A DNA stretch of 64,000 nucleotides, from positions 50,673,885 to 50,737,884 of the forward strand of contig CAIIXF020000001.1 of assembly GCA_903813345.2 (NCBI GenBank). Reading direction: 5' to 3'. The notes under the pieces are model-generated. The model did not search any database, was not told the DNA's origin, and was given only the letters and a program-made list of their open reading frames with translations. The translations under genes were made by a program, and so were the position numbers. Positions 1,989 to 41,800 of this stretch are shown here, in pieces. This stretch comes from Owenia fusiformis. Taxonomy: Eukaryota; Annelida; Polychaeta; Sabellida; Oweniidae. Position 1 is the stretch's first letter. Every line of letters begins with the position of its first letter.

Positions 1989-4900
1989 TACCAGGATAGT
2001 GCGAGCGTTAGTTGGTGCATCTATCCCACGAGCAAAGTGCGATATGCCGAGTTTTTTACAAAAATTCTGTAATTATGTGTATCATTTATGTATTCTTTGA
2101 TCATTATAGGAACAAAATACGAGCACTACAGATTTCACAAACAAAATGTTGTTATTGTTTTGATAGCGCACTGACGTCCGCGCGATGGCAAAATCTATAC
2201 ACAGTAGATCAGTTATGCTGAAATCGACCGCTGTAATGCTCGTATAATGTACTCTATAAACCACTAAATGGTATGTATAATGCGTGTAGATTTTTTAAGC
2301 GGTCAAAAGTAAGCGAATGGAGTGCTTTGGAAATGCAAAAATCAAGTTGTATATATGTTTGGTTAGCGCTTGAAGCTTGGCTTTTAGCCAAGCTGGATTA
2401 TTCGTACTGTAAATTATGTTACTTTAGCAAGCGCCTGAAAAGTGTAAACTTTTGCTTCTTTTATTTATTATCAAGTGTTTTATATATGGGAAATGAAGTT
2501 ATGAATGTAAAGTATGAGTGGAATGAAAGGTGGATGAATGTGATGTTGGTTTGGACAAATTATTTGTTAGAAATTGAATATTTTATATGCCTCGAATTAT
2601 ATGTGCAAGGACTATTGGATAATTGTATTTTATTTTACTCAAAGCTTATAGTGTGCTGCTACTAAAGGTCCACACACAAATTTAAGATTATGCACTCTTA
2701 ATGTAAGAGGCATTAGGAGTCACTCGAAGAGAAGATCTATATTTTTATACGTAAAACGTTTTAAGAATGATGTTGTATTCCTTCAAGAAACGCATTCAAG
2801 TGTAGATGATAGTAAGAGATGGGAAAATGAATGGGGGTTAGGGAAGTGTATATTTTCTCATGGCAGACTTTGAAATGAACGGGGAGTAGCTATTTTATTG
2901 GGAAATAACCGTATATCCATCATAAAACAGTTGAGTGACACTGAAGGAAGATACATCATCATTCAAATACAAAGTGAGGGTAAAAACTACACGTTATGCA
3001 ATATATATGCTCCAAATGATGAAAATGTTAGGAAAGAGTTTTTCGACCATGTATCAGCAATTATAACAACAGAATTTTCACACGAAAATCTGATTCTAGG
3101 GGGAGATTTTAATGTTACTATGGATAATAGATTAGACAGATATTCAAAAAATGTTGAACATATTCAAAATAATGATGCATCTCGTGGGGCGCTGCTGGAT
3201 TTACTTAAATTTTATGACCTCGTTGATATATGGAGGCATCAGAACCCCACAAAAATTCAATATACCTATGAATCTTATGCAAAAGATGACATGCGAAATT
3301 CTCTTTCCAAAAGTAGGTTAGATATGTGGTTCATTAAAAGAAATATGGGTAACAGTAGCCTCTGTAAGATAGCTCCATCGGTTAAGTCTGATCACAAATG
3401 TGTATTACTAGACACTATGTCAAATGGAAATAATAAACGAGGCCCTGGCTTTTGGAAAATTAATAATAAACTGATTGAGAATGAAGAATATCAAAATATT
3501 ATCAGGAAATTGGTGAAAGATGTTAAAACAGAATATAATGACCTTGATAATATCCAAATGTGGGAATTTCTAAAATACAAAGTTAAAGTTCGAACTATTG
3601 AGTTTTCTAAGCAAAAGGCCAGGGCACTTAGGGCGCAAGAGATAGAGCTAATTAAATTATTAGAGAATCTAGACAGTGAGCTGGTCAACGGAAATAATCT
3701 TAATGCAGACAACTGTAGGAAATACGATGAAGCAAAATCTAAGCTAAATGACATTTATCAGTATAAAGCTGAAGGGGCAATCCAACGCTCAAGGGCTGAA
3801 TGGGTTGAAAAGGGGGAGAAAAGTACTCAGTATTTTTTCAATTTGGAAAAATCTAACCATAATAAAAAACACATTACAAGACTTATTGTTGATGGAGCCA
3901 TTGTTACGGATGAGACTGAAATTCTTAATCAAATAAAAGCATTTTATGAAGAACTATATTCATCGAAATCATTAAAAGATTGTGAGAAATTTAGACGTTT
4001 TGATGAAGGAATACAAATAGATAAATTAGATAATAATGAACAATTATCATGTGAGGGAACCTTAACAACTGATGAATGTTTTAGAGCCTTAAAGAGATTT
4101 AAAAATGGAAAAACACCCGGAAGTGACGGTCTTAGCTCCGAATGGTACAAGCATTTTTGGGATGACATTAAAGAATCCGTAGTTAACTCATTCAATTTTG
4201 CATTTGAAAAGGGTATTCTTTCAATGAGCCAAAGGCAAGGTGTTATATCCCTTATACCGAAGGGAGAAAAAGATTCAGAATATTTAAAAAATTGGCGACC
4301 AATTACTTTGCTAAATATTGATTATAAAATTGCATCCAAATCAATAGCACAGAGAATAAATGCTGTTCTAGGTAAAATTATTGGATCGGATCAAACTGCT
4401 TTTATTGAAGGGAGGTTTATCGGAGAAAATATTCGCTATGTCGAAGATCTTTTGGAATACACCAAGAAGAGGGGTATACATGGAATCGTTTGTATGGTGG
4501 ATTTTCTCAAAGCCTACGATAGTGTCGAGTTTGATTATATTGAGCATGTACTAAGGGTGTTTAATTTCGGAGATGACCTGATCCGATGGGTTAAGATGTT
4601 TAATAATGATATTAAAAGTTGCGTCCTTAACAACAACGTGTCGACTGGCTGGTTTAGTGTTAAACGCTCATGCAGGCAGGGGGACCCGATCAGTTGCTTG
4701 AATTTTTTACTTGTTATAGAGATGCTAGCCTTAAAAATTAGACAAAACAATGATATACAGGGAGTTGACATTGGCGAGGCAAGTCAAAAACTAGCGATTT
4801 TTGCAGATGATACCACGTTGACTCTTAAGGACGTAACGTCATTACAAAAAGCATTGGACATCTTTGAAGATTTCAGACTAATATCAGGTTTATGTATTAA

Positions 4901-6531
4901 TAGAGAAAAAACAGAGTGTATGTATATTGGAAGTGATCGTCATAATAATGAAATAAACCTTTTTGGTCTGAAATGGGTAAAGATACCAAGTAGACTTTTA
5001 GGGATAAAAATATCATATGACACAAATGCAAATAACACGGATAATTTTGAGAGAAAGTTAAATATGCTTGAAAAGGTTCTTATATTGTGGTCAAAGCGAG
5101 ATCTTACTTTTTATGGAAAGGTACTCATAATTAAGTCCCAGGCAGTGTCGAAGCTAATATACTCGATGACAATGACCAATACGCCTGATGATATCTTGAC
5201 GAAGGCTCAACGACTAGTCTATTCTTTTTTATGGGGAGGAAAGGGTGAGAAAATTAAGCGAAATACTTTAATAGGGGATTTTGAGGATGGGGGTCTAAGA
5301 ATGATTAATATGTTCACAATGGAGAAAGCCTTGAAATTAATGTGGTTAAGACGTTTACTTGACACACGAACTAGTCACTGGAAGCTTATTCCTCAAGTTT
5401 ATTTCAAGTGTCTTGGAGGACTGAGTTTTTTGTTGCAGTGTAATTATGATATTAAAACACTGGCACACAGTGTTCCTACCTTTTATATGAATTTGCTTCG
5501 AAACTATTCAGAATTAAGAAATAGGTCGCCGCCTAGAACCAGTTCAGGGGTTAAAGGTGAAATAATTTGGAATAACAAATCAATTCTAATTAATGATAAG
5601 GAGGTGATGTACAAACATGTCATGGAAAAGGGGGTCATTTATATTAATGACCTTCTTAACGAGAATGGGGCTTTTTTACAGTACAATGAGTTTAAGACTA
5701 AGTATAATATTAATATCAACTTTCTTGAGTATTTTTCAATCATATCGGCTATACCAAATGATTGGAAATTTCTATTGAAATCAGATTTAAGTTCGACCTT
5801 TGAACCCAGCATACAGGAAGAACTCGTGTATTTGAAACTTGGTGAAAAACAGGTGACAATCTCTAGTATAACGGTTAAATCAATTCAAACAATATTAAAT
5901 GGAAACAAGTTCTTGGAACCGTTATATAAAGACAAACATGATCGTGAATTAAAGAGAACCGATTATTTTAAAATGCCTTATATGTGTACGAAACAGAATA
6001 AAACGCGACAACTTCAGTTTAAAATACTTCATGGTATCTGCACTACAAATGCCTTTTTAGCGCAGATAGGCATTAAAAATGACTCTAAATGTAACTATTG
6101 TGCCTTTCGAGATACGTTAAAACACAAATTCTGGGAGTGCAAAAGAATTCAAATATTTCTGGAAGCAATCAAAGGGAATTTAAAGCGTTTATTTAAAGTT
6201 GATTTCGATTTTAACGCCCATGACATGGTTTTTGGAAGGCAAGCTAATAAGAAAAATATCTTACCAAATAGACTTACCCTTGCAATTAAGTACTATATTT
6301 TTATTAAAGAGTTCGACGAAGTGAATCCCAATTTGTATGAGGCGCAATTTGAAAAAAATATGTTTTATTATGTACCTGAACTTAAAAGTATGACTGTTGC
6401 AAATGTCTGAATGAATGGAGGTGGTGTGAAAAATATCTGAACTGTTCTAATTATTGTACTTGTACTGTTTGAATAGAGAAATAAAAAAAACAAACAAAAA
6501 AAAAAAAAAAGAAAAAAAAAAAAAAAAAAAA
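1989..6531 (+). mobile_element. LINE retrotransposon, L1/Tx1-like, near full length
   Basis: The insertion is bounded by 14-bp target-site duplications and ends in an A-rich tail (6480-6531). It has a 5' leader of about 690 bp in which no convincing ORF1 is seen; an open frame at 2273-2665 has low complexity and no recognisable domain. The leader is followed by one long endonuclease/reverse-transcriptase frame. The intact target duplications and single stop codon suggest a fairly recent insertion. It lies in the presumed first intron of PSMC2, in the orientation opposite to that gene. Confidence 0.9.
2679..6410 (+). pseudogene. LINE ORF2: AP endonuclease + reverse transcriptase, one in-frame stop
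   Basis: The frame starts with an APE-type endonuclease (LNVRGI, then NIYAPND, GGDFN and a terminal SDHK motif). The reverse transcriptase follows, with NWRPITLLN, DQTAFIEGRFIGEN, VDFLKAYDSV and the catalytic FADD box near residue 635 of the frame counted from 2898. The C-terminal part has a C-x2-C-x7-H-x4-C zinc knuckle near residue 1065. The motif set looks closest to the L1/Tx1 group, judged by eye. A TGA at 2871-2873 interrupts the frame inside the endonuclease. The frame is open from 2652, after a TAG, with no methionine before the TGA, so its native start is unclear. Downstream of the stop it is open for 1170 codons. Confidence 0.88.
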
Positions 6532-29760: not shown

Positions 29761-30768
29761 TTACAACCACTCATAGTTGACAAGATCACCACTAAAGTCT
29801 CTATGGTTGTCATGACGCAGATGCGCCATCAGCTTCTTGTTGACACGTCCCTGGAGTCGCTTCCTGGATAGCCACTTGCGAACTTGCTTGGTGGAGAGCC
29901 CTGCAGATTGAGCTAGTTGACCAACCATCTCGCCTGTGGGGTAGAGATTGTCGCTGTTCTGTCCAAACCAGGTGTCAAGTACGAGTTTGCTGGTCCGGGA
30001 GATTCTCTGGCGTTGAACCACGGGTGCAGGGACCTTGTAGGTGTTAGTGGAAGACTTGCTTGATTTCGCAGGTGTTGACGTCATGAGAGGCTCCCTGGGT
30101 AGAGCAGAGTGGCTGGCACCTCGGGGCTCAAACTTGGCCAGCTTGGCACCGATGATGTCCTTAGGGGCAGCAGAGAGTTGGCTCAGGTTGCGTTCAACAC
30201 TGTCAAAGAGAGCTAGTTTCTGAACATCATGCTGACGATTGATGGCTGTCTGGTGGTGAGGCTTTGGGTTGGCGAGGAGAAGACGATAGCGACCACATTC
30301 AATCTCGTGCACTTGCTTGCGATAGAAGACTTCTAGTTCTAGCAGTTTCACATTGTCAGATAGGCGATACTTGAGCATGCTGAACTGCATCTCCAGCATA
30401 GAGCCCCGTAGTGACAAAGCATCAGTTGTATTCTCTGCTGGCCTTGGTCCCACTGTAGACTGGCTCGCATCTGTAATGGTGAATTCTTCCACTGATGTGC
30501 TTGACAGAAAATCGAGTCCAGACTTCTGGTTCATCCTATCTGATGTGGAGAAACTTAACTGGCTTGATGATGCATCTCGATGGATCTTGTTCACTGTAGC
30601 TGGTGAAAATGTCAGATAGCTGGCTGACTTCAATGAGTTGTGTGGAGCTGTTTGCTGTTCGGACACTGCGCTCACTTCTGTGCTCAGGTTGAGAAGGTTG
30701 TTCATCGACAATGGGATGTCTCTCCTCGTCTTGGCTGCAACTGGTGTACTGGTGGTGTTTGTCTTCAT
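29761..30768 (-). CDS. Divergent TALE-type homeobox gene, intronless, copy 1
   Basis: One uninterrupted minus-strand frame encodes 335 residues from the ATG at 30768. The region to about residue 245 is Ser/Thr-rich and low in conserved motifs. A homeodomain-like fold covers about 250-309. The distance from the helix 1 tryptophan (in LDTWF) to the tyrosine of NLYP equals that of TALE homeodomains (three extra loop residues, LYP in place of PYP). Helix 3 reads LSTKQVRKWLSRKR and keeps Trp48 and Arg53. Phe49 is Leu, and the nearly invariant Asn51 is Arg (residue 302). The family is probably a lineage-specific TALE-like transcription factor; a link to the spiralian TALE expansion (SPILE genes) is a guess. 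TATA, CCAAT and TCF-type sites lie upstream. An almost identical copy lies at 36734-37741. Confidence 0.8.
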   Translation of the reverse strand: MKTNTTSTPVAAKTRRDIPLSMNNLLNLSTEVSAVSEQQTAPHNSLKSASYLTFSPATVNKIHRDASSSQLSFSTSDRMNQKSGLDFLSSTSVEEFTITDASQSTVGPRPAENTTDALSLRGSMLEMQFSMLKYRLSDNVKLLELEVFYRKQVHEIECGRYRLLLANPKPHHQTAINRQHDVQKLALFDSVERNLSQLSAAPKDIIGAKLAKFEPRGASHSALPREPLMTSTPAKSSKSSTNTYKVPAPVVQRQRISRTSKLVLDTWFGQNSDNLYPTGEMVGQLAQSAGLSTKQVRKWLSRKRLQGRVNKKLMAHLRHDNHRDFSGDLVNYEWL

Positions 30769-30850: not shown

Positions 30851-30887
30851 CAAATCAGGAATGAATTAATCTAAATGCAGCAATCTG

Positions 30888-31260
30888 ATTGGCTGAGATC
30901 GTTTTTTCTTTGATCCGTTTGATCCCACCAGGGTATTATTTAAATCTTAACTCCCTGTGGATCAAGAAACAGTGGGATTAAGATCAAAGCACAACAGGAC
31001 TCCTTATGTGGCCTCACTTGGCAGGTAAGTTTTCTTGATCTCAAAGATCCCACTGGGGTATAATTCTTAACTCCCTATGGATTAAAATACAATGGGATTA
31101 ACCAGATCAATAAACTTAGATCCCATTGGGGTTTTCATAATTCTCAACGCCCTGTGGATGAATATGCAAAGGAATTAGGAACAAAGCAAAACTCCTTGTG
31201 TGTCCTCATTTGGCAGATAAATTTTCTTTGATCTCAATGGATAATATTTTTTTACAATTC
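30888..31260 (-). promoter_or_regulatory. Upstream module of homeobox copy 1 (CCAAT + TCF/LEF-type sites)
   Basis: Exact CTTTGAT or ATCAAAG heptamers (core of the TCF/LEF consensus) are at 30908-30914, 30983-30989 and 31226-31232. They are embedded in repeats of the form GATCCCACYRGGGTATTAT then CCCTGTGGAT, in which sites face each other as loose dyads. The block is homologous to the one upstream of copy 2. Confidence 0.55.
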
Positions 31261-31304
31261 CTAGCTATCTGGGATATAATGGCATCAATGATATAAGGTA
31301 CTGT

Positions 31305-31974
31305 TGTAACAGTTTTTTAAGTTCGAATAAAGTAACACAAAATTCTTAAAGTTAAAGTCCTAAACGTTTATTATTTCATTATCAAAATCCAATCTTTACA
31401 TTGAGTTTAGTTTAATCAGTATGTTGTGCCGTAGTAAAAACTGTTCTGATCATGATATTCTGAGATGATAATCAAGAAAAGTCCGAAAGTATGGAAAGTT
31501 CCACAGGGAAGGTTCCAAAAAGGAGGTGAATAATAATTTCCCATAATTACCAAATAAATGAACCAATAATGAACAAATTAAAGATAATATCAAATTAAAT
31601 CTACTGGACTTCCTAAACCTCCTTTAAATGGAGGCAAATGTTGATTCCCATGAGGAACCAACATTTGAACCAATAGAAAGCCAAGTAGATTATGTAATAC
31701 ACTAGAATATCCTGAACTAAAAAATCCTCCTTTATGGGAATTGGAACTTTCCTGATAGAAAAGACATAACAATATGAAAAGAGCCAAGATTTTAATGATA
31801 TTTATGAATGATAGCACGTATTGAGTGCAAATGAACTTAAGGAGAATAAAGAATAGAAATGATGTACATCAAATGTATAGAACAATAACATATATCTTAA
31901 AACCTAAATCAATGTGATATAAAAATGAAGTTGTACCAAAATTTAATGTATATGAAAACCTAAACCCTGTTTCA
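31305..31974 (-). repeat. 3' LTR of the non-autonomous element
   Basis: The 670-bp direct repeat is paired with 35242-35911 and preceded on the minus strand by a polypurine tract. It reads TGTAACAG at its plus-strand left end, where the other copy has TGAAACAG. Confidence 0.92.
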
Positions 31975-33849: not shown

Positions 33850-34400
33850 TGGGTAACATGGAACACGGGACGGCTACGACTGCACTCTGGCATTACGGGT
33901 TACTTCTCTGGGGCACGGGACATCTACGAATGCACTACCTGGCATTAAAATACTTCCCGGGGGTACGAACATCTACGAATGCACTACCTGGCATTAAAAT
34001 ACTTCCCGGGGATACGAACATCTACGAATGCACTACCTGGCATTAAAATACTTCCCGGGGATACGAACATCTACGAATGCACTACCTGGCATTAAAATAC
34101 TTCCCGGGGATACGAACATCTACGATTGCACTACCTGGCATTAAAATACTTCCCGGGGAAACGAACATCTACGAATGCACTACCTGGCATTACGATTACT
34201 TCTCTGGGGCACGGAACATCTACGAATGCACTACCTGGCATTACGATTACTTCTCTGGGGCACGGGACATCTACGAATGCACTACCTGGCATTAAAATAC
34301 TTCCCGGGGGTACGAACATCAAAGAATGCACTCCCTGGCATTACAGTTAACATCTCCTGGGTATGGGGCGTCTACGAATATAAACTCTGGCATTATAGCT
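33850..34400. repeat. 49/51-bp minisatellite inside the LTR element
   Basis: About ten to eleven tandem units contain CTACGAATGCACTACCTGGC. Successive starts are at 33924, 33973, 34022, 34071 and 34120. Two unit types occur: a 49-bp form with ATTAAAATACTTCCCGG and a 51-bp form with ATTACGATTACTTCTCTGGG. Edge units on both sides are diverged. The open frames across it are a by-product of repetition, and I see no protein. Confidence 0.9.
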
Positions 34401-35241: not shown

Positions 35242-35911
35242 TGAAACAGTTTTTTAAGTTCGAATAAAGTAACACAAAATTCTTAAAGTTAAAGTCCTAA
35301 ACGTTTATTATTTCATTATCAAAATCCAATCTTTACATTGAGTTTAGTTTAATCAGTATGTTGTGCCGTAGTAAAAACTGTTCTGATCATGATATTCTGA
35401 GATGATAATCAAGAAAAGTCCGAAAGTATGGAAAGTTCCACAGGGAAGGTTCCAAAAAGGAGGTGAATAATAATTTCCCATAATTACCAAATAAATGAAC
35501 CAATAATGAACAAATTAAAGATAATATCAAATTAAATCTACTGGACTTCCTAAACCTCCTTTAAATGGAGGCAAATGTTGATTCCCATGAGGAACCAACA
35601 TTTGAACCAATAGAAAGCCAAGTAGATTATGTAATACACTAGAATATCCTGAACTAAAAAATCCTCCTTTATGGGAATTGGAACTTTCCTGATAGAAAAG
35701 ACATAACAATATGAAAAGAGCCAAGATTTTAATGATATTTATGAATGATAGCACGTATTGAGTGCAAATGAACTTAAGGAGAATAAAGAATAGAAATGAT
35801 GTACATCAAATGTATAGAACAATAACATATATCTTAAAACCTAAATCAATGTGATATAAAAATGAAGTTGTACCAAAATTTAATGTATATGAAAACCTAA
35901 ACCCTGTTTCA
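35242..35911 (-). repeat. 5' LTR of the non-autonomous element
   Basis: The 670-bp direct repeat is paired with 31305-31974 and abuts the primer-binding site on its inner side. Confidence 0.92.
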
Positions 35912-36733: not shown

Positions 36734-37741
36734 TTACAACCACTCATAGTTGACAAGATCACCACTAAAGTCTCTATGGTTGTCATGACGCAGATGAGCC
36801 ATCAGCTTCTTGTTGACACGTCCCTGGAGTCGCTTCCTGGATAGCCACTTGCGAACTTGCTTGGTGGAGAGCCCTGCAGATTGAGCTAGTTGACCAACCA
36901 TATCGCCTGTGGGGTAGAGATTGTCGCTGTTCTGTCCAAACCAGGTGTCAAGTACGAGTTTGCTGGTCCGGGAGATTCTCTGGCGTTGAACCACGGGTGC
37001 AGGGACCTTGTAGGTGTTAGTGGAAGACTTGCTTGATTTCGCAGGTGTTGACGTCATGAGAGGCTCCCTGGGTAGAGCAGAGTGGCTGGCACCTCGGGGC
37101 TCAAACTTGGCCAGCTTGGCACCGATGATGTCCTTAGGGGCAGCAGAGAGTTGGCTCAGGTTGCGTTCAACACTGTCAAAGAGAGCTAGTTTCTGAACAT
37201 CATGCTGACGATTGATGGCTGTCTGGTGGTGAGGCTTTGGGTTGGCGAGGAGAAGACGATAGCGACCACATTCAATCTCGTGCACTTGCTTGCGATAGAA
37301 GACTTCTAGTTCTAGCAGTTTCACATTGTCAGATAGGCGATACTTGAGCATGCTGAACTGCATCTCCAGCATAGAGCCCCGTAGTGACAAAGCATCAGTT
37401 GTATTCTCTGCTGGCCTTGGTCCCACTGTAGACTGGCTCGCATCTGTAATGGTGAATTCTTCCACTGATGTGCTTGACAGAAAATCGAGTCCAGACTTCT
37501 GGTTCATCCTATCTGATGTGGAGAAACTTAACTGGCTTGATGATGCATCTCGATGGATCTTGTTCACTGTAGCTGGTGAAAATGTCAGATAGCTGGCTGA
37601 CTTCAATGAGTTGTGTGGAGCTGTTTGCTGTTCGGACACTGCGCTCACTTCTGTGCTCAGGTTGAGAAGGTTGTTCATCGACAATGGGATGTCTCTCCTC
37701 GTCTTGGCTGCCACTGGTGTACTGGTTGTGTATGTCTTCAT
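36734..37741 (-). CDS. Divergent TALE-type homeobox gene, intronless, copy 2
   Basis: 335 residues from the ATG at 37741, intronless like copy 1. I find only two amino-acid differences from copy 1: a Tyr for Asn near the N-terminus and an Asp for Glu in the homeodomain loop (YPTGDM). The few silent changes seen bring the total to roughly half a dozen in 1 kb. The homeodomain keeps Trp48 and Arg53 and has Arg in place of Asn51. The 3' flank is also close to copy 1, but the upstream 400 bp differ visibly more. The promoter has TATA at 37816-37823 and a much longer array of CCAAT and TCF-type sites. The gene lies just downstream of DNAJC11 on the same strand. Confidence 0.8.
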   Translation of the reverse strand: MKTYTTSTPVAAKTRRDIPLSMNNLLNLSTEVSAVSEQQTAPHNSLKSASYLTFSPATVNKIHRDASSSQLSFSTSDRMNQKSGLDFLSSTSVEEFTITDASQSTVGPRPAENTTDALSLRGSMLEMQFSMLKYRLSDNVKLLELEVFYRKQVHEIECGRYRLLLANPKPHHQTAINRQHDVQKLALFDSVERNLSQLSAAPKDIIGAKLAKFEPRGASHSALPREPLMTSTPAKSSKSSTNTYKVPAPVVQRQRISRTSKLVLDTWFGQNSDNLYPTGDMVGQLAQSAGLSTKQVRKWLSRKRLQGRVNKKLMAHLRHDNHRDFSGDLVNYEWL

Positions 37742-37815: not shown

Positions 37816-37823
37816 CTTTTATA
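37816..37823 (-). promoter_or_regulatory. TATA box of homeobox copy 2
   Basis: TATAAAAG on the minus strand lies 75 bp before the ATG at 37741. A CCAAT box in gene orientation lies at 37861-37865. Confidence 0.75.
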
Positions 37824-37860
37824 CAAATCAGGAATGAATTAATGTAAATGCAGCAATTTG

Positions 37861-38847
37861 ATTGGCTAAGATTGTTTTTTCTTTGATCTGTTTGATCACA
37901 CCAGGGTATTATTTAATTTTTAACTCCCTGTGGATCAAGAAACAATGGGATTAAGATCAAAGCACAACATGTTTCCTTATGTGGCCTCACCTGGCAGGTA
38001 AGTTTTCCTTGATCTCAAGGATCCCACTGGGGTATTATTCTTAACCACTTGTGGATTAAAATACAATGGGATTAAGATCAAAGAAATGTGTTCTTTATGT
38101 GGCCTCACCTACAATTGAAGTTAGGCTTGATCTCTTAGATCCCATGGGGTATTTATAATTCTTAACCTCCTGTGAATCAACATGCAATGGGATACAAATT
38201 AAAGCAGAATTCCTTATTTGGCCTCACCTGGCAAGTAAGCTTTCTTTGATCCCGATGGGTATTTATTTATTATTATACTCCCTGTGTAGTAAAAGAGAAA
38301 GTCATTTGATCCAAGATCTACAATGTAAGTTTTATCTGTTATGGAATGCAGCACTGTGATTGGCAGAGAATGTTTTTTTTTCTTTGATCTGTTTGATCCC
38401 ACCAGGGTATTATTTTAATCTTAACTCCCTGTGGATCAAGAAACAATGGGATCAAGATCAAAGCACGACGGGACTCCTTATGTGGCCTCACTTGGCAGGT
38501 AAGTTTTCTTGATCTCAAGGATCCCACTGGGGTATTATTCTCAAGCACCCATGGATAAAAATACAATGGGATTAAGATCAAAGATCATCTGTTCTTTACC
38601 TTTGAAGGACAATTATTTCTAAATATGAAGTGTTGCACTTTGATTGGTTTAAAATGGTTTCCTTTGATCAATGTAAGTAAATGAGAAAGCTATCAATCCC
38701 AGATCTTTGCATAACCATTTTATCTTTCATGAAATGCTGCAATATGATTGGCCAAGAATGTTCTCCTTTGATTCGTAAAAATAAAGGAAAGAATCATTCG
38801 ATCCCAGATCTCCTCGGATCTTTATAAGATTAGGTCACTTTGATTGG
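37861..38847 (-). promoter_or_regulatory. Expanded CCAAT + TCF/LEF-type array upstream of homeobox copy 2
   Basis: Exact CTTTGAT/ATCAAAG heptamers start at 37881, 37956, 38077, 38244, 38382, 38457, 38577, 38638, 38662, 38766 and 38838, with a CTTTGAA at 38600. ATTGG (CCAAT in gene orientation) is at 37861, 38359, 38643, 38747 and 38843. The promoter-proximal module (a TGCAGCA-like motif, ATTGG, then CTTTGAT) recurs several times at uneven spacing, which suggests amplification of one module. The array ends about 50 bp from the DNAJC11 stop codon. Confidence 0.6.
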
Positions 38848-38895
38848 TTGATAATTATTTTTGATAAATAATAAGTTAATAAGTAAAATCAACAC

Positions 38896-41800
38896 TTATA
38901 CAATACCTGCCAGGGGTATCCTGAGTTTTTCTTTGTCCCCTACTATGACTTCATGGATCTGTTCTCTAAACATGTATTTCACATAAAGTTGTTTCTCTTC
39001 GCCGTAACATGGATCAAAGAACCCTTCCAAGCCACTCTGTAAACAAATAAAAAATGTAACTCTTAACACCTAAAAGGATTTATGAATTGCAAAGAGAGAC
39101 CATCTTCAATTTAACTGTGCTTTTATTTATAACACATCCAAGTTTTCTGAATGAGAGCCCTTGCAATTGTTTTACACTTTATTTCTCCAGGAAATGTTTC
39201 TGATCAAATTGCCCTTGCAATTGTTTTTCACTTTTCTTGAGGAAATGTTTTGATCAAATTGCCCTTGCAATTGTTTTTCACTTTTCTTGAGGAAATGTTT
39301 TCGATCAAAAGAGCCCTTGCAATTGTTTTTACTTTTCTTGAGGAAATGAATTGATCAAATTGTGTGAATAAGGCATATAACTCCTTCATTGAAATTTTTA
39401 TTTTCCTGATTTTCCATCCCTTCCATCCCTGCTTTTTTAATTTTTCTTGAATCAATATGTTGTGTTTTGACACAGTTAACCCCTTTAAAGGAATAAGTGA
39501 TTCCTTTTCGATAAAGTGGAAAACAATATTTCCGAAGTTATTTTCCAATAGGGAAAACTCATGCGATCCATTGCTTTTAGCTACTTTTGGTCACCCATAA
39601 TGGATATCTTTAAAACCCCCGAAGGAATCATTAATTCCTTTAAAGGGGTTAACTGTGTGTCAAAACACAACATATTGATGCAAGAAAAATTAAGAAAGCA
39701 GGGGTGGAAGGGGATGAAAATCAGGAAAACATTTCAGAAAAACATGTGGGTGGGTTGTTTACATCTTCCCTGTCTCAAAGTCGAAATTATTTTATCATCT
39801 CTAGGAGTGCTTTCCTGGAGGTAATGCATTGGTCTAACATATGCACCTGTTTACATCCTCAGAAAATAGCCAAAATCCAACATATGACTGTCCGAAATCT
39901 GTTGCGATACTTTCCCTCCTCCTTTGGAAAACCAAAATTCTGGGGTCATGCGGAATCACAGCGCACTAGGATGAGTGATTTTTAAACAATGCACTACAAC
40001 AATATCTAGCAAATAAGATATACAAATCCGGAACAGACCATTCCCCCAAAATAACTACCTTAGAGACTCCTCCCGGGACTATCAGCTTATGGTTGTCTAT
40101 CAATACATACAGTGGATCAGTGACATCTATACAGCATTCTTCATTCAAATGCCTGCAATGCAAGGTTAATCAACAATTAAGGAAAAGCAATACATGTATC
40201 ACAACAAAGCATAAACATCCAATTGTCACCACCTGCCATTTGTTACAGATGCCATTTGTTACAGACACTGAATGCCGAAGACTGTACACAAAAAAGTTGG
40301 AGACTATAACAATATGTCAGCACTTGTGATGGTGACATAACAATATGTCACCACTTGTGATGGTGACATAAAAAGTGATGCCAAACAATATCCTCCAGCT
40401 ATACGATACTTGATTACTTGAAGTTTTATGGACATGTTATCTTGTCATAAATCTAAACCATTCTAGCCAATATACCCTAGTTTCACTCATTCACCAAAAC
40501 GGTTCACTGGACCTATTAGAAAGGCCTATCCTTAATCACAGTGACTATCTAGGCTCTGTATATATGGCGAGCAAGTTCCCACTGACATTGCGAGCAATAA
40601 GCTCATGTTAAAAGCGGGGCCTTGAAAGATGATAAAATATAGTTATAGTTAAAGAACGTTGTTGCCCTGCAATTGAAATATTCATTGTACTATGAAATAA
40701 AGTTGTACTGAGTTTATTTTACAAATCTTTCATATAAATGTTATATTTCAATTATCATGGGCTCATTGCTCGCGATGTCAGCAGGGCCTGGATAGTCCCC
40801 GTGATAATGGCCTGAATGTAATCAATCATACACTACTCTTACCTGGACTCCTCGCTTGTATATATTTTTCCATATTTGGCCGCCAGAATGATCAAACCAA
40901 GTAATTTCTCTGCCTGCTTTATTGATTCTATTTTATTCTTCATTAGTAGAATCTACAAAAACAAACATTTGAAACAATTAAAAGTATTGTTTTTATTCAA
41001 AAGCAATATTCATGCGTATAGTATGTTACCAGGTTTATATGAAAAATCTGTAAGTGTAAAGCCCTTGGGATTACAAACATTGCTTCTCTTTGGATTCAGC
41101 ATGAAAATGGTGAAAAATCTAAATTTCCTTATGTTGTTGCAGGTCATTGCAAAAAATGAGTACGTTTGAGTAGATCCCAACTAAACATGGGACTATAGAC
41201 AAAAGAGTAATGGATAGACAGCCATAGAATACACTTACTGCTTCTCGTGCCTCCTCTTTCTTCTTCTGTAACCTCTCTCTGTTCTCTTGCTTCTGTTCCT
41301 TTAGCTCCCTTGTAAAAAGCATGGAATTTTGTTATATTCTCGTACAACTTTATTTCCCTCATGTACTATTGATTTAGATTTCAAATGATTTTTTAATTTT
41401 TTTTTTTCAAATGATTTTAATTTTTAAATTAATAGAATAACCAGGAAGTTAGTAGTTACAACTATGATCAAAATAGGAATTCAACTTCTAATTTACCAGG
41501 GTTACAATCGTCAGTTTTGTACCATGTGCAAGCTTTTGTTAAGGGGGTTCACTTTTCAAAAAATTCCAGGAGGATTAATATTTGACAACTTTTTCAAAAA
41601 ATCACTTGAAGTGCTCAAAATGGTGAAAAATCTGCATGATTTTGAGAAAATTTTTGGCCAAAGGGGGTTCAGCCCCCCCCCCCTCTAGTTACGAGCCTGT
41701 GTCAATACACACAAGAAAAAGGTCGATATTGTGAATATACCCAGCATCAGACTTAACATAATGTTGAACATTCAAACAAACTTCTTTATGCACTCACTTG

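Follow-up and report, generated by a model that had tools for sequence, protein, structure and literature searches.

A tandemly amplified putative promoter array upstream of candidate early TALE homeobox genes in Owenia fusiformis

What is the dense array of short sites that precedes a duplicated homeobox gene of Owenia fusiformis, and which protein might read it? The array lies at 37861-38847 of a 64,000-nucleotide stretch of DNA (hereafter the window) and had been predicted to consist of TCF/LEF-type sites interleaved with gene-oriented CCAAT boxes, with an amplified TATA-proximal module. Exact matching within these 987 bp returned 11 CTTTGAT/ATCAAAG heptamers and one CTTTGAA at the same positions as originally predicted. 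Based on dinucleotide composition, 0.40 (interval) or 0.30 (whole window) heptamers would be expected, so a chance origin was ruled out; the genome as a whole contains 143,077 in 498.26 Mb, or 0.29 per kb. The CCAAT boxes and the amplification were likewise recovered, with five boxes in gene orientation and none in the opposite orientation within 37861-38847, a second copy of the TATA-proximal block (37847-38097 versus 38345-38598, 88.6% identical) and units of about 121 bp. Because the array grew by tandem duplication its heptamers are not independent sites, a caution that the prediction itself had given. The basic features are:

36734..37741, minus strand: SPILE-like TALE homeobox gene copy 2, 335 amino acids, single exon (open reading frame; Homeobox_KN 30.6 bits, cut-off 24, E 3e-7; genome search)
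29761..30768, minus strand: SPILE-like TALE homeobox gene copy 1, 335 amino acids (open reading frame; Homeobox_KN; 99.4% amino acid identity to copy 2)
37818..37823, minus strand: TATA box TATAAA, 42 bp downstream of the proximal CCAAT
37912..38239, minus strand: array units of about 121 bp, 2.7 copies (TRF)
30874..31300, minus strand: shorter array upstream of gene copy 1, stopping where a 670-bp repeated segment starts (31305)
37881, 38244, 38382, 38638, 38662, 38766, 38838: CTTTGAT, seven exact matches in 37861-38847
37956, 38077, 38457, 38577: ATCAAAG, four exact matches in 37861-38847
38600: CTTTGAA, one exact match in 37861-38847
37861, 38359, 38643, 38747, 38843: CCAAT, five boxes in gene orientation

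Other repeats were also noted in the window. The 670-bp segment occurs twice (31305-31974 and 35242-35911, 99.85% identity), one occurrence adjoining the end of the copy 1 array. Directly distal to the copy 2 array, a 50-bp tandem repeat (39157-39362, four copies) carries GATCAA in each copy without CCAAT, and gave three weak matches (E 0.2-0.36) with profile R2, described below. An inverted repeat of approximately 330 bp at 39401-39729, 75% identical to its own reverse complement, represents a fold-back element. There is also a satellite at 33901-34343 (49-bp unit, 8.9 copies), and an open frame of 1178 codons at 2874-6410 resembles a LINE endonuclease-reverse transcriptase, with a FADD motif recognized by eye.

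Both window proteins scored above the Homeobox_KN cut-off (30.6 and 31.1 bits), which places them in the TALE class and agrees with the prediction of a duplicated TALE-like homeobox gene. Across the genome, 43 of 47 Homeobox_KN matches were marked as over the cut-off, including members of all five clusters considered here. Twenty matches came from a genome search. Two lie in the window (C1a), and the others fall at C4:25.5 Mb (three), C1:58.46 Mb (C1b; five, including a fragment), C5:39.5 Mb (seven, including a fragment), C8:11.2 Mb (two) and C3:28.05 Mb (a single weak match). Intact single-exon SPILE-like TALE reading frames numbered 17, in five clusters (C1a, C1b, C4, C5 and C8) whose representatives were 28-74% identical between clusters. 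Ten public protein records belong to the family (seven from O. fusiformis, one from Mya arenaria and two unnamed); a protein search with the window protein alone as query recovered only itself.

SPILE genes are reportedly spiralian-specific TALE homeobox genes. The tree comprised the Owenia genes, the Mya arenaria ceh-40-like protein and two unnamed ENA proteins. Midpoint-rooted and subject to long-branch warnings, this tree grouped the C3 gene with the Mya and ENA proteins, apart from all 17. When the Owenia proteins were compared among themselves, residues about 16-146 of C3 matched (E 6e-5 to 0.007) the region upstream of the homeodomain in seven proteins, four of them from C5, two from C8 and one from C1b. 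In the accessible portions of two SPILE papers (PMC8524836, PMC6118893), SPILE genes resemble the window family in having a TALE homeodomain, a spiralian host and tandem amplification specific to the lineage, and perhaps in a conserved PADRE-like region preceding the homeodomain, whereas the window copies differ in that homeodomain N51 is absent. Both window proteins read RKWLSRKRLQG where C4 relatives have RKWFSNKRLRG and have lost R55 as well as N51, and their DNA binding may therefore be altered. R55 is also missing from C1b_461667; the solved structures nearest to the C4 homeodomain are Exd/PBX, with N51 and R55 in common. Elsewhere, at C11:22962033-22962383 (G000), a TALE homeodomain with 37% identity to the C3 gene was observed within an open frame of 2032 codons.

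The predicted tie between the array and a TALE gene was strengthened by recurrence of the upstream array before related genes. GATCAA occurred 4-16 times per 900 bp upstream of the 17 intact genes, compared with a maximum of 6 in background windows, of which 3 of 239 reached 4; both tandem duplication and duplication of the genes have inflated these numbers, and the 120-kb background includes five loci chosen for holding CTTTGAT (L001-L005) as well as gene cluster flanks. Fourteen of the 17 genes exceeded 6, and three lay inside the background range (C4_515786 with 5 sites, C4_518736 with 6 and C8_177251 with 4). Across 15 genes of four clusters, GATCAA was found at fixed spacing upstream of CCAATCA, with 25 sites at -31 and 18 at -22 among 55 within 60 bp, two being in the opposite orientation. 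CCAATCA itself favoured the gene direction by 68:2 in the 1.3 kb upstream (fragments included), with up to five boxes before a single gene. TATA was found in 16 of 17 genes, 31-42 bp downstream of CCAAT in the four module-sharing clusters (+31, +40 or +42) and at +22 or +31 in C8; the patterns used found none before C4_515786.

The module thus defined carries, in order, one or two GATCAA (-31, -22), CCAATCAGA with an AAAACAA stretch between, and TATA 31-42 bp further on, GATCAA and CCAAT being on the same strand; a consensus drawn from 23 selected modules reads ATAAGATCAAnnGGATCAAAGAAAAACAATnnCAACCAATCAGATTGCAGCATTT. The C8 genes are without an alignable module, and CCAATCA, TATA and runs or clusters of TTGATC are present upstream of them. 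An AP-1-like TGACTCA was observed adjoining the GATCAAAG site in C4, C1b and some C5 modules (upstream arrays of L029 and L031), and a CCCCAGGGGG-like stretch adjoins this site in C4 and C1b modules. TATA/CCAAT promoters bound by NF-Y are a known kind of promoter. The Owenia module resembles them in its single CCAAT orientation and set CCAAT-TATA distance, and is unlike them in that the module itself is repeated.

The array is best explained as a promoter together with its proximal control region, amplified in tandem, that belongs to an Owenia gene in the spiralian TALE (SPILE-like) expansion and has a proposed role in zygotic activation; we assign this reading as a whole a probability of approximately 0.68. 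Its description as a promoter array of early TALE genes appears well supported. That a module common to four diverged gene clusters is tandemly repeated upstream can be read from the sequence. The tandem periods were 121 bp in the window, 155 bp in C4, 163-165 bp in C1b and 73 bp in the C5 stretch scanned, and ahead of one C5 gene CCAATCA also returns at intervals of 166 bp. Since the periods differ by cluster, one ancestral module was probably multiplied separately in each.

Identity was compared between four-fold synonymous sites and 68-bp core segments anchored on CCAATCA, the anchor, which matches by construction, having been removed. The core was clearly above four-fold sites for C4-C1b_461667 (85 vs 63%), C1b-C1b (89 vs 64%) and C1b_461667-C5 (59 vs 46%), and slightly above for C4-C1b_471145 (82 vs 77%), C1b_471145-C5 (56 vs 52%), C1a-C1b_461667 (44 vs 38%) and C1a-C5 (46 vs 39%). 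It was not higher for C4-C5 (56 vs 56%), C1a-C4 (46 vs 49%) and C1a-C1b_471145 (39 vs 44%). Overall, C1a showed no excess conservation (core 39-46%, four-fold sites 38-49%, anchor removed), with 4-60 of 200 shuffles attaining its gapped scores against C4, C1b and C5. The C8 cores were 28-34% identical, below their four-fold values, and unalignable. A shared origin and fixed spacing are well supported; selection on the core beyond them is not proven.

Profile R1, built from 23 chosen modules including some from the window, was searched in 184 kb and identified 65 modules at E<1e-6, its own training modules among them. Sixty-one of these sit 5' of, and point at, a SPILE-like open reading frame or fragment; the other four (three at L029:8561-8940, one at L032:8349-8407) are aimed at none and are perhaps remnants of lost copies. 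No R1 module reached E<1e-6 in the C8 stretches. The held-out profile R2 was built from 17 modules of C4, C1b and C5 only and run over 104 kb made up of the window and the stretches from C8 and C3. Its best five matches all lie before the two window genes, being the core module of each copy and three further modules of copy 2, followed by a next-best match at E 0.12, and this recovery argues for a shared origin of the module. The modules in the window are:

37842..37906, minus strand: core module of gene copy 2, with GATCAA at -31 (37892) and -22 (37883) from CCAAT (37861); R2 E 1.1e-11, R1 E 4.9e-15 (in R1 training set)
30869..30933, minus strand: core module of gene copy 1; R2 E 5e-11, R1 E 5.5e-15 (in R1 training set)
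38344..38407, minus strand: second full module, at the start of the duplicated block 38345-38598; R2 E 3.7e-07, R1 E 4.3e-10
38729..38789, minus strand: distal module; R2 E 1.6e-05, R1 E 9.6e-13 (in R1 training set)
38624..38687, minus strand: distal module with the CCAATCAAAG composite; R2 E 3.2e-05, R1 E 2.7e-11 (in R1 training set)
38837..38878, minus strand: doubtful, degenerate distal module with CCAATCAAAG; R1 E 0.03, R2 E 0.13

Neither profile found a full module in 17 other TALE/forkhead stretches of 1.9-3.0 kb each, which end at the domain hit and so need not be promoters in intron-bearing genes. Over 24 other loci (58.5 kb), R1 and R2 gave three weak partial matches only, all in foxQ2-like loci and confined to the CCAATCA part (E 0.001-0.14); we infer the foxQ2 label from tandem forkhead clusters. 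A general early-zygotic code was rejected, as seven foxQ2-like and five other forkhead loci lacked a full module and carried GATCAA at 0-2.0 per kb. A general TALE feature was also rejected, with 0-2.0 GATCAA per kb at five other KN loci and none at the C3 gene. Four tandem forkhead genes at C8:13.95 Mb (L046-L049) have an upstream CCAATCAGA box in common, and GATCAA occurs there no more than once in 2 kb, so boxes of the NF-Y type may be shared by early genes. As far as tested, the module appears to be restricted to one young gene family.

The arrays could instead be functionless tandem-repeat DNA carried along by gene duplication, which we consider quite improbable. Such an origin would suit the near-identity of the window copies, the four of 65 modules aimed at no open reading frame and a core whose conservation does not exceed that of synonymous sites in C4-C5 and in two of the four C1a pairs (anchor removed), but it sits poorly with spacing and orientation fixed over four clusters, with the ability of a profile from other clusters to pick out the window modules, and with TTGATC clusters in the non-alignable upstream DNA of C8.

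If the array is an amplified promoter, the factor reading it may be sought from the enriched sequence. By mean enrichment over five clusters, the top 6-mer of 1617 was GATCAA and the top 8-mer was GATCAAAG, while ATCAAAG ranked 15th of 3704 7-mers (two gene fragments, C5_478866 and C1b_465980, were excluded from k-mer counts). GATCAAAG accounts for 8 of the 11 heptamers of the interval; two of the other three (38638 and 38838) form the end of CCAATCAAAG, so overlapping a CCAAT box. Forms without CAAAG were strongly enriched (GATCAAGA 55, GATCAAGG 37 and GATCAAAC 31 times), and in 103 GATCA sites, near-duplicates having been collapsed for this PWM only, the base completing CAAAG was G in 29% (assumed background 17%). 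The constant part of the site is GATCA. Sox sites were rejected, AACAAAG being near background.

TCF prefers AAGATCAAAGG, and the GATCAAAG subset therefore fits TCF while the other sites do not. These extended TCF-type sites are enriched, ATCAAAG preceded by G occurring at 44 non-independent sites in 15.3 kb versus 5 in the 120-kb background, and no GATCAANN form other than GATCAAAG occurs in all five clusters, for which reasons TCF stays a candidate. A WWCAAAG core as such was not enriched: ATCAAAG preceded by A, C or T occurred at 6 sites versus 43 in the 120-kb background (about 5.5 expected). ATCAAAG was absent from the TATA-proximal modules of C4, C1b and C5 (0 of 13 genes), as was GCCGCC, the helper motif of fly TCF, from 26 kb of upstream DNA. 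TCF/LEF-responsive homotypic enhancers are a known kind of enhancer; the Owenia array is like them in its many GATCAAAG sites and unlike them in its GATCA core with or without CAAAG, its lack of the helper motif and its tie to CCAAT and TATA. On a TCF/LEF account, TCF would bind the GATCAAAG sites and animal-vegetal asymmetry of nuclear beta-catenin would set TALE expression in quartets. The available text of two papers is consistent with this, describing beta-catenin in the annelid Platynereis as a reiterated animal-vegetal binary switch (PMC4669655) and staggered animal-vegetal expression of SPILE genes (PMC8524836); against the enrichment of forms without CAAAG and the background level of ATCAAAG lacking the preceding G, we regard the account as on balance unlikely. 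The TCF/LEF label of the original prediction holds in so far as GATCAAAG is the best 8-mer and present in all five clusters, and fails in that enrichment centres on [A/G]GATCA(A) and not on CAAAG; it is one of three candidate readings of the sites and is not established.

The PBX half-site is TGAT, which fits TTGATC. A SPILE or PBX-type protein, possibly encoded by the single-copy C3 gene, might thus read TTGATC beside NF-Y and the family activate itself, a tentative and somewhat doubtful proposal. The Exd/PBX-like C4 homeodomain with N51 and R55 points this way, as does the position of the array-less C3 gene with the Mya protein, outside the 17. In zebrafish, according to the part of PMC6023610 available, maternal TALE factors bind near NF-Y motifs at an average spacing of about 20 bp. 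The Owenia module is like those elements in having sites approximately 20 bp from CCAAT, a probable early-embryo setting and a possible TALE reader; it differs in having no DECA motif TGATTGACAG of the zebrafish kind (0 sites across the 900-bp upstream regions of the 17 genes) and in that the sites belong to amplified promoter repeats of the TALE-class genes themselves. TGACAG is depleted upstream of the family genes, which also speaks against self-activation, and the N51/R55 losses in the window proteins and C1b_461667 imply that some members would be unable to read such a site. As the putative GATCA reader, a TALE protein (PBX-type, perhaps a SPILE protein itself) and TCF/LEF have roughly the same likelihood, and the reader may also be a third factor.

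Expression in the early embryo, raised as a possibility in the prediction, is in print for TALE genes of the species and not for these gene identifiers. In the portion of PMC12550047 available, actinomycin treatment and RNA-seq place genome activation of O. fusiformis at 4-16 cells, with over ten TALE genes, reported at species level and not tied to the window genes, among the first zygotic transcripts and up at 3 hpf. In molluscs, A/C- and B-clade SPILE genes are zygotic from 4-16 cells and D/E genes maternal, according to the excerpted text of PMC8524836. The C3 gene has no array and would fit the maternal type by analogy. The covered parts of the SPILE papers (PMC8524836, PMC6118893) deal with genes and expression, whereas promoters are considered here; no publication on SPILE promoters was named among the matches listed, and the covered parts of the Owenia chromatin literature contained nothing on these loci.

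For a promoter array amplified with its genes, we propose that NF-Y would bind CCAAT and open the promoter, that a factor reading GATCA would bind the paired sites, and that the repeats would raise occupancy, so that these short intronless genes could be strongly transcribed when the zygotic genome is activated (4-16 cells). The parts of the array are ordinary (an NF-Y-type box and TATA); what is unusual is the fixed GATCAA pairing, the amplification and, as far as tested, the restriction to one young family. A further step, speculative and rather unlikely, would be a private stereospecific promoter code of paired GATCAA, NF-Y and TATA, with a TALE/PBX-type member of this very family as its reader, in a self-reinforcing circuit that would act at first zygotic transcription in a spirally cleaving embryo and be tuned by module repeat number.

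The shared module may bear on how the spiralian homeobox genes that mark early-embryo quartets are first switched on. Its compactness would allow beta-catenin/TCF to be separated from a GATCA-reading TALE loop through the CAAAG end of the site, and in this family promoters and young transcription factor genes may be seen amplifying together.
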